Of a stretch of 64,000 nucleotides of DNA, positions 13,512 to 15,903 are shown in pieces (position 1 is the first letter of the stretch; each line of letters opens with the position of its first letter). The position numbers and the translations under genes were made by a program. The notes beneath the pieces are model-generated. The model had not been told where the DNA came from. It worked only from the letters and a program-made list of their open reading frames with translations, and searched no databases. This DNA is from an uncultured Alphaproteobacteria bacterium (lineage in GTDB: Bacteria > Pseudomonadota > Alphaproteobacteria > Puniceispirillales > Marisalimonadaceae). The stretch lies in NCBI GenBank assembly GCA_937142855.1, contig CAKZQZ010000090.1, forward strand, positions 1-64,000. Reading direction: 5' to 3'.

Positions 13512-13551
13512 CATTTTATTACATATATTCCTAAGATAAAGAGAAATAAAC

Positions 13552-14415
13552 ATTTATAATTTAGTACCATTAATTTTTGTTATTCTTTGGTCATCTGCCT
13601 TCATAACAAGCAAAATAATAGTAGATAATGCATCCCCTTTCTTTTCTCTTTCTTTCAGATTTGGTCTAGTTACTATCTTATTTTTTATCTTTTTTTTAAT
13701 TTTTTCTAATAGAAAAAAAATTACTATTAGAAGTTTTTTAGATGCATCAATTAGCGGTCTACTCTTTCATGGCTTTTATTTAGGAGGAGTATTTTTTGCT
13801 TTATCGAAAGGTATTTCTGCGAGTTTAATAGCTCTAATAGTCTCGTTAACGCCTATTTTAACGTCAATATTGGCTAAAATTTATTTAAATGAAATGTTTT
13901 CTAAAATGCAATGGATTGGTACCTTATTAGGATTTACTGGTGCTGTTATTATTATTTTTTCTGATCTGAAAGAAGGTTTGAGCTTAATTGCTTTTTTTGC
14001 AGGATTAATAGGATTAATCTCTTCTTCTATAGGCATGATATGGCAAAAAAAAATTAGCTCTGATTTATCACTTTCAGGCAATAATTTTATTCAAGCCTTA
14101 AGCGCTTCTATTTTTCACTTAATACTTGCACTTTTATTTGAGAATTACTTTATGAACTTTACTGATGAATTTATATTTGCAATGTCTTGGCAAATTATTG
14201 CTATTTCATTAGGAGCTTTTTTAATTTTAATGTGGCTTTTAAAAAACAAACAAGCAAATCAAACTTCTTCATTGTATTTTCTAATCCCACCTTTTTCAGC
14301 GATAATGGCATACTTTGTATTAAATGAGCAAATTTCATATTTAGATATAACAGGTCTTTTAATTACAAGTATTGGTGTTTTCTTTGTTATTCAATTTAAG
14401 CATAAGACATTTTAG
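13552..14415 (+). CDS. EamA/DMT-family transporter, apparent ATT start
   Basis: A drug/metabolite transporter of about 287 residues with roughly ten membrane segments in two EamA repeats. The first repeat opens with PLIFVILWSSAFITSK and FSLSFRFGLV; the second includes GALILMWLLKNKQA-like and PPFSAIMAYFVLNEQIS motifs. The frame opens after a stop at 13537-13539 and contains no ATG, GTG or TTG until 13870, which would remove the first three or so helices. The best placed codon is ATT 13552, eight bases after a purine-rich AAAGAG; ATA 13546 is a lesser choice. Substrate unknown. The family call is secure, the start is not. Confidence 0.78.
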   Translation: MYNLVPLIFVILWSSAFITSKIIVDNASPFFSLSFRFGLVTILFFIFFLIFSNRKKITIRSFLDASISGLLFHGFYLGGVFFALSKGISASLIALIVSLTPILTSILAKIYLNEMFSKMQWIGTLLGFTGAVIIIFSDLKEGLSLIAFFAGLIGLISSSIGMIWQKKISSDLSLSGNNFIQALSASIFHLILALLFENYFMNFTDEFIFAMSWQIIAISLGAFLILMWLLKNKQANQTSSLYFLIPPFSAIMAYFVLNEQISYLDITGLLITSIGVFFVIQFKHKTF

Positions 14416-14473
14416 ATAAATAATATTGTTTTTATTTTTACTTTTGTTAGTATTAACTAATCAGAGCCTTTTT

Positions 14474-14624
14474 ATGTGAGAGAGCTATATAGCCACCGAA
14501 GGAGCAACCACCCCGGAATCTCTCAGGTCACTGGAACATAAAAAGTTGATAATCTGGAGAGTGATGATTTTATCATCCACCGAAGGGGTAAGCCAATTAT
14601 TTTGGTCAATCTCTCAGGTTCCAT
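14474..14624 (+). ncRNA. Tandem glycine riboswitch
   Basis: Two consecutive glycine aptamers. The first (about 14474-14536) has GAGAGAG, CACCGAAGGAGCAA and CTCTCAGG; the second (about 14551-14624) has GGAGAG, CACCGAAGGGGTAAGCC and CTCTCAGG. These conserved blocks, in order and spacing, define the gcvT-type glycine switch. The short linker between copies (about 14537-14550) is typical of the cooperative tandem form. A weak promoter (TTGTTT at 14426, TAGTAT at 14448) could start the RNA near 14460. The next gene is the DadA-family flavoprotein, so the switch should respond to glycine and tune that gene. Confidence 0.95.
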
Positions 14625-14670
14625 GACAGATGGGGTTTTGCAATTTTGCAAATACTTATTAATGGAGCCT
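14616..14670 (+). promoter_or_regulatory. Anti-Shine-Dalgarno expression platform of the glycine switch
   Basis: AGGTTCCAT (14616-14624), partly the 3' strand of aptamer-2 P1, is complementary over nine pairs (one G-U) to ATGGAGCCT (14662-14670), which contains the dadA ribosome site GGAG. The loop between them carries its own hairpin TTTGCA-ATTT-TGCAAA (14637-14652). P1 pairing (14551-14561 with 14611-14620) and this helix both need 14616-14620, so they exclude each other. Glycine would free the ribosome site. This is read from base pairing only. Confidence 0.65.
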
Positions 14671-14673
14671 ATG

Positions 14674-15903
14674 ATGAAAAATCTCGCAGTAATTGGCGCT
14701 GGAATAACTGGAATTACAACAGCATATCAACTTAAAGAAAGAGGCTATGATGTTTGTGTTTTTGATAAAAACCGTTACGCCGCAATGGAAACAAGTTTTG
14801 CAAATGGTGGGCAACTCTCAGCATGTAATGCTGAGGTGTGGACTAGTTGGTCTACAATCAGTAAAGGTATATTATGGATGCTTAAAAAGGATGCCCCCCT
14901 TTTGTTCAATCCAAAACTAAATTTTCACAAAATTAGCTGGTTACTTAGTTTTATAAGGAACATCCCTAATCACAAGCAGAATACAATTTTAACTGCACGT
15001 ATGGCAATTGCAAGTAGAGAAGAGTTTAAAAGAATTCTCAATCAAGAAGATATAAAATTGGATCTTGAAGAAAAAGGTATTCTTCATTTGTGTAATAATC
15101 ATAAATCTTTAAAACACGGTAGAATAATAAATAAATGGTTAATGGAGGCAGGATTACATCGTAAAGAGGTGTCTATAGAGGAAATGTTAAAAATTGAACC
15201 AACATTGAATTTAAAAAACTTTGTAGGAGGTTTTTATACACAAAGTGATATGTCTGGGGATATACATAAATTCACAAAATTGCTTGCAGAAGCTTCTGAA
15301 AAAAAAGGTGTCAAATTTAATTATGAAACGGAAGTCATTAATATTAAGCACAACAGTAAACAACAAATTATTTCTTTTAAAAATTCAATTGGAGTAAATG
15401 AGGCTAAATTTGATGGAGTGGTTATTTGTGCTGGGGTTGCTAGCAAGTTCCTAGCTGGAAAACTTGGTGATAAAGTAAACATTTATCCTGTAAAGGGTTA
15501 TTCTATAACGGTGTTACTAGACGATCAAGATAGTATAGAGAGTGCACCTTATGTGTCTTTATTAGATGACGAAGCTAAGATAGTTTCAAGTAGATTAGGT
15601 GAAAATAGGTTTAGAGTTGCTGGCACAGCAGAGTTCAATGGTTACAACAAAGATATTAGAGCAGATAGAATAAACCCTTTAGTAAAGTGGTGTAATGAAT
15701 TGTTTCCTAGAGTGTCTACAGAGCATGCTATTCCATGGGCAGGTTTACGGCCTATGACACCAAGTATGGTTCCTAAAGTCGGTAGCGGGAAGCTGCCTGG
15801 AGTTTTTTATAATACAGGTCATGGGCATCTTGGTTGGACTTTGAGCGCTTTTACATCCAAACAAATATCAGATCATATAGTACGAAAAGATAATGCTTTA
15901 TAA
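14674..15903 (+). CDS. dadA: DadA-family FAD-dependent D-amino-acid (or glycine) dehydrogenase
   Basis: A 409-residue flavoprotein. It has VIGAGITGITTAYQL at the N-terminus, then METSFANGGQLSACNAEVW, YPVKGYSIT, WAGLRPMTPSMVPKVG and NTGHGHLGWT, all matching DadA-type D-amino-acid dehydrogenases. These oxidise D-alanine and other amino acids to keto acids with quinone as acceptor. The open frame extends back to TTG 14602 through the riboswitch; GGAG at 14664-14667 selects ATG 14674 (or 14671). Control by a glycine aptamer suggests the physiological substrate may be glycine or a compound metabolised with it. The stop faces gyrB with 6 bp between. Confidence 0.9.
   Translation: MKNLAVIGAGITGITTAYQLKERGYDVCVFDKNRYAAMETSFANGGQLSACNAEVWTSWSTISKGILWMLKKDAPLLFNPKLNFHKISWLLSFIRNIPNHKQNTILTARMAIASREEFKRILNQEDIKLDLEEKGILHLCNNHKSLKHGRIINKWLMEAGLHRKEVSIEEMLKIEPTLNLKNFVGGFYTQSDMSGDIHKFTKLLAEASEKKGVKFNYETEVINIKHNSKQQIISFKNSIGVNEAKFDGVVICAGVASKFLAGKLGDKVNIYPVKGYSITVLLDDQDSIESAPYVSLLDDEAKIVSSRLGENRFRVAGTAEFNGYNKDIRADRINPLVKWCNELFPRVSTEHAIPWAGLRPMTPSMVPKVGSGKLPGVFYNTGHGHLGWTLSAFTSKQISDHIVRKDNAL

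Follow-up and report, generated by a model that had tools for sequence, protein, structure and literature searches.

Glycine riboswitches precede PRK12409-family FAD amino-acid dehydrogenase genes in SAR116 and other Proteobacteria

The DNA analysed here (the window, a stretch of 64,000 nucleotides) comes from an uncultured alphaproteobacterium that belongs to the SAR116 cluster, and it carries a tandem glycine riboswitch ahead of a gene whose family is named for D-amino acids. The question raised by this locus is why a glycine sensor should be placed on such an enzyme. Targets given in the open main texts of earlier reports include gcv genes, transporters, glcB, serC, sdaA and others (PMC2211319, PMC3766115, PMC12452182), and the main text of Sun et al. 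2013 counts twelve glycine-metabolism orthologues (PMC3766115). A search of main texts, with supplements and subscription papers outside its scope, found no report of a glycine riboswitch paired with dadA or PRK12409, and the pairing may already be listed in regulon tables or in the survey of 145 genomes. The reading that we favour, at a probability of roughly 0.65, is that the tandem riboswitch is a translational ON switch for a PRK12409 FAD dehydrogenase that oxidises surplus glycine to glyoxylate for malate synthase, replacing the cleavage system lost in this genus.

A covariance-model search of the whole 2.32-Mb genome with RF00504 (gathering score 32 bits) gave two matches exceeding that score, which lie in tandem and are complete with conserved cores and P1 stems (Table 1); no third glycine aptamer was found elsewhere in the genome. 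The initial annotation, which was made from the letters alone and proposed this search as a check, had called both aptamers intact by their conserved blocks, and the matches over the cut-off at 14465-14639 bear this out. It had placed the whole unit at 14474-15903; the end is right, while the start cuts into the 5' strand of the aptamer 1 P1 stem. A cmscan of the window reports aptamer 2 alone and omits aptamer 1 from its output, apparently owing to a 5-nt overlap between the matches. The glycine-GGAnGA variant (RF03166) was rejected, the tandem unit scoring 61.9 bits against a cut-off of 110. Among leaders of the genus the P1 of aptamer 1 is paired in 23/23, with A-U/G-C compensation at 14474-14539, and that of aptamer 2 is invariant and paired in all 23. 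The element is an ordinary, canonical tandem glycine riboswitch, and it is the target gene that is under-described. Judging by its conserved features, the leader would bind glycine.

Table 1. Coordinates of the aptamers, the predicted switch helix and the controlled gene within the window
Feature	Position	Strand	Basis or remarks
Glycine aptamer 1	14465..14548	+	RF00504 60.0 bits, E 5.6e-12; P1 = 14469-14477 with 14536-14544
Glycine aptamer 2	14544..14639	+	RF00504 61.9 bits, E 1.8e-12; P1 = 14552-14556 with 14627-14631
Anti-Shine-Dalgarno strand AGGUUCCAU	14616..14624	+	Within the 3' part of aptamer 2; paired to 14662-14670 when the leader is folded without ligand (minimum energy)
Shine-Dalgarno region AUGGAGCCU (GGAG 14664-14667)	14662..14670	+	Partner of the anti-Shine-Dalgarno strand
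dadA-like gene, 409-aa FAD amino-acid dehydrogenase, PRK12409/NF009074	14674..15903	+	NF009074, PF01266, structure model

Without ligand, the lowest-energy structure of the leader contains aptamer 1 and a disrupted aptamer 2, and its Shine-Dalgarno (SD) sequence is covered. The anti-SD strand spans the core of aptamer 2 and the joining region ahead of the 3' strand of its P1. Most other members of the genus have a helix of 13-16 bp at this place (AGGUUCCGUGACAGA with UUUGUCACGGAGUUU), which competes directly with P1, and within the genus a compensatory A-U to G-C change at 14623-14663 involves both strands. Cognate anti-SD/SD duplexes were compared with swapped ones for a dereplicated set of 24 alpha-, beta- and gammaproteobacterial leaders; the cognate duplexes had a mean of -13.6 kcal/mol versus -10.2 for the swapped ones (z -6.8), and 0 of 20,000 permutations reached the observed mean. 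Some leaders (L150, L153 and L154 among them) have little SD complementarity, and the mechanism is therefore not uniform. Control by a transcription terminator was rejected, as the leader contains no terminator-like site from aptamer 2 to the start codon. Because the anti-SD strand belongs to the aptamer, so that ligand binding would free the SD, an ON switch is expected and glycine should turn translation on in vivo. Glycine-induced expression of the DadA-family enzyme, as put forward in the initial annotation, is a well-supported prediction, resting on the covariance-model matches, on conservation at both genus and family level and on the covariation of the anti-SD/SD helix. The arrangement resembles the gcvTHP tandem riboswitch (RF00504) in its two complete aptamers, the same cores, a presumed glycine catabolic target and the expected ON direction. 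It differs from that system in that a single flavoenzyme gene follows and control looks translational, the SD helix being built into aptamer 2.

The start codon is taken as ATG 14674, with an alternative ATG at 14671, and is preceded by the GGAG listed in Table 1. A 433-aa open reading frame from TTG 14602 is spurious and begins within the aptamer. The product had been described from the sequence as a DadA-family flavoprotein, which agrees with its matches to PF01266 (DAO fold, 213.9 bits) and to NF009074 (PRK12409, "D-amino acid dehydrogenase"; 628.4 bits, cut-off 494). Classical DadA (NF001933/PRK00711) shares the DAO-fold branch and the active-site signature GHG-LGWT, Y271, K274, Y276 and R359, and most of the conserved active-site columns of PRK12409 match classical DadA too; however, classical DadA forms a separate clade and its model gives the window protein only 324.6 bits against a cut-off of 383. 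The AlphaFold model (pLDDT 86.5) has glycine oxidases as its nearest solved folds (4ysh, Z 39.2, rmsd 2.3 over 345 residues); L-proline dehydrogenase (Z 37.7) and sarcosine oxidase (Z 37.5) follow closely, and dimethylglycine dehydrogenase is also among the nearest. Since these scores lie so close together, the substrate cannot be read from the fold. R359 aligns with the WAGLRP arginine of the glycine oxidase ThiO, a residue that binds the substrate carboxylate in ThiO, and it is invariant across 90 members of the PRK12409 family; the GHGHLGWT motif is almost wholly invariant across the same members. Despite the likeness in fold and arginine, the protein is not assigned to ThiO (TIGR02352, 131.2 bits against a cut-off of 250.8), an enzyme whose role is in thiamin synthesis.

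The initial annotation had treated the pairing as local to the window and had suggested a survey of homologues. That survey makes the pairing a trait of the PRK12409 family. Among 84,980 species genomes scanned, the best 80 PRK12409 loci come from SAR116, Roseobacteraceae, Rhizobiales, Acetobacteraceae, Burkholderiaceae, Comamonadaceae, Halomonadaceae, Marinobacter, Stutzerimonas and Granulosicoccus. RF00504 exceeds its cut-off just upstream of the gene in 79 of these 80 alpha-, beta- and gammaproteobacterial loci, and the sole exception (L128) retains a remnant of aptamer 2, whereas a glycine aptamer was found at 0/20 classical dadA (PRK00711) control loci. Two classes were also sampled evenly, which reduces the bias of this set. 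In the alphaproteobacterial sample all PRK12409 members above 600 bits carry the riboswitch, including five loci outside SAR116; in the sample of the other class six of seven members do, and in the seventh (G830), whose gene is split over contig ends, the aptamer was not found. None of the divergent members L155, L156, L198 and L199, which score 433-518 bits and lie near or below the family cut-off, has the riboswitch. In a tree built with FastTree only, the genes with a riboswitch fall into a single clade that excludes L155 and L156, and the gammaproteobacterial genes nest among the betaproteobacterial ones, which suggests that gene and riboswitch may have been transferred jointly. Conserved neighbours that might point to a pathway were absent beyond local synteny within clades, and because neighbouring genes are not conserved, synteny cannot explain the pairing. 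The gene copy of Comamonas testosteroni NFYY023 (L138, 3001-4209) has an in-frame stop after 181 codons and is either a pseudogene or a sequencing error.

Within the SAR116 order 50 of 61 genomes contain a glycine riboswitch, one site each; by coordinates 10 of these sites precede gcvT and 40 precede a dadA-like gene. In the genus of the window gcvP and gcvH are missing from 37/37 genomes and none of the 37 has gcvT over the cut-off, the source genome itself being rated 100% complete. A weak GcvT-like protein in one genome of the genus resembles DMSP demethylase instead (393.7 bits, slightly under the cut-off of 410 for that model). Two genomes elsewhere in the order (G046 and G059) likewise have the riboswitch and dadA without gcvP, and several SAR116 genomes have neither the glycine cleavage system nor the riboswitch-dadA pair. 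Because the same sensor sits on either the cleavage operon or the dadA-like enzyme, these data suggest that the two are alternative outlets for the same glycine surplus in SAR116. A general rule that dadA replaces the glycine cleavage system was rejected: it is valid within SAR116, one exception aside, but not outside the cluster. In genomes with a PRK12409 gene outside SAR116, gcvP is present in 32 of 42, and the enzyme therefore usually works beside the cleavage system and is not a simple replacement for it. Two genomes of one SAR116 genus, G039 and G053, both have riboswitch-dadA; G053 is without gcvP, while G039 retains a full cleavage pathway for glycine, its riboswitch being at dadA, with none at its gcvT. 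In another genome of the cluster, G060 (L040), the dadA-like gene is in the same place, with a gap of some 100 nt ahead of it but no riboswitch, so that control has been lost naturally.

Malate synthase is present in 23/23 high-quality genomes of the order, including that of the window, and isocitrate lyase in 0/37 genomes of the genus. The glyoxylate used by malate synthase must therefore have another source in this genus, for which glycine is a candidate and glycolate another. As the PRK12409 family is so consistently under glycine control, it most likely handles glycine, and conversion to glyoxylate and ammonia is proposed because no simpler reaction offers itself for an amino-acid dehydrogenase of the DAO fold. 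In the scheme that we favour, the anti-SD strand in the 3' part of aptamer 2 would pair with the SD region when glycine is absent and block initiation. With glycine bound, aptamer 2 would close its P1 and take up that strand, the SD would be freed and the PRK12409 enzyme made. The enzyme would then oxidise surplus glycine to glyoxylate and ammonia, and malate synthase would convert the glyoxylate to malate, so that in this SAR116 genus the enzyme could substitute for the lost glycine cleavage system. The aptamers, the switch helix, the linkage and the gene content are computational observations; the electron acceptor and metabolic role of the enzyme are what we infer from them. The substrate is the weakest link of the interpretation. 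It is probably glycine, with glyoxylate as product, and the case is strong but circumstantial, drawn from the family-wide linkage, the loss of the cleavage system and the occurrence of malate synthase where isocitrate lyase is missing; a different amino acid, such as D-alanine or D-serine, is less likely.

The last point is the main alternative, in which the riboswitch is real and the enzyme acts on D-alanine, D-serine or a mixture, glycine merely signalling amino-acid surplus or cell-wall stress. The curated family name, the signature shared with classical DadA and a fold that does not by itself fix the substrate all agree with it, and no PRK12409 member of known substrate was found, which counts against glycine oxidation. 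However, a riboswitch that is near-universal in PRK12409 and absent from the sampled classical dadA loci is most simply explained if glycine is the substrate, and the single riboswitch of SAR116 is attached in some genomes to the glycine cleavage operon and in others to the PRK12409 gene. We regard this alternative as unlikely, though worth keeping in mind. A dehydrogenase for sarcosine or another N-methylglycine, with the riboswitch sensing the glycine produced, would fit the nearness of sarcosine oxidase and dimethylglycine dehydrogenase in fold, but under the predicted ON switch product sensing would be positive feedback, and the sarcosine oxidase beta model gives 34 bits where 529 are required; we consider it very improbable. 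That the aptamers are a relic of a lost gcvT operon and dadA is no longer controlled is the least credible account: the same element does precede gcvT in other SAR116 families and gcvT is missing from this genus, yet 23 leaders show conserved aptamer cores and P1 stems with compensatory changes, covariation ties the switch helix to the SD of dadA, and riboswitch and gene are found together again in Burkholderiaceae, Halomonadaceae and Roseobacteraceae.

If surplus glycine is indeed oxidised by this enzyme, a widespread family annotated by homology alone gains a testable function, and it would be easy to see how SAR116 bacteria that lack a cleavage system and isocitrate lyase could draw on glycine and supply malate synthase with substrate. 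In SAR11 a glycine riboswitch precedes the malate synthase gene glcB (PMC2211319, PMC5069720), so that malate synthase itself is coupled to the glycine sensor there. The parallel is that in both cases marine alphaproteobacteria connect the sensing of glycine with the metabolism of glyoxylate and malate; unlike in SAR11, the sensor here would sit on the presumed glycine-to-glyoxylate step, and the malate synthase gene that is present carries no glycine aptamer. At about even odds, the whole PRK12409 family is misnamed and would consist of FAD glycine dehydrogenases that are induced by glycine, probably respiratory, and provide a cleavage-independent path from glycine through glyoxylate to malate, with the sole glycine riboswitch of SAR116 taken over after loss of the cleavage system.

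Upstream of the riboswitch, the EamA transporter gene (13537-14415), which has no ATG, GTG or TTG ahead of 13870, is open and similar to its relatives over the full length.
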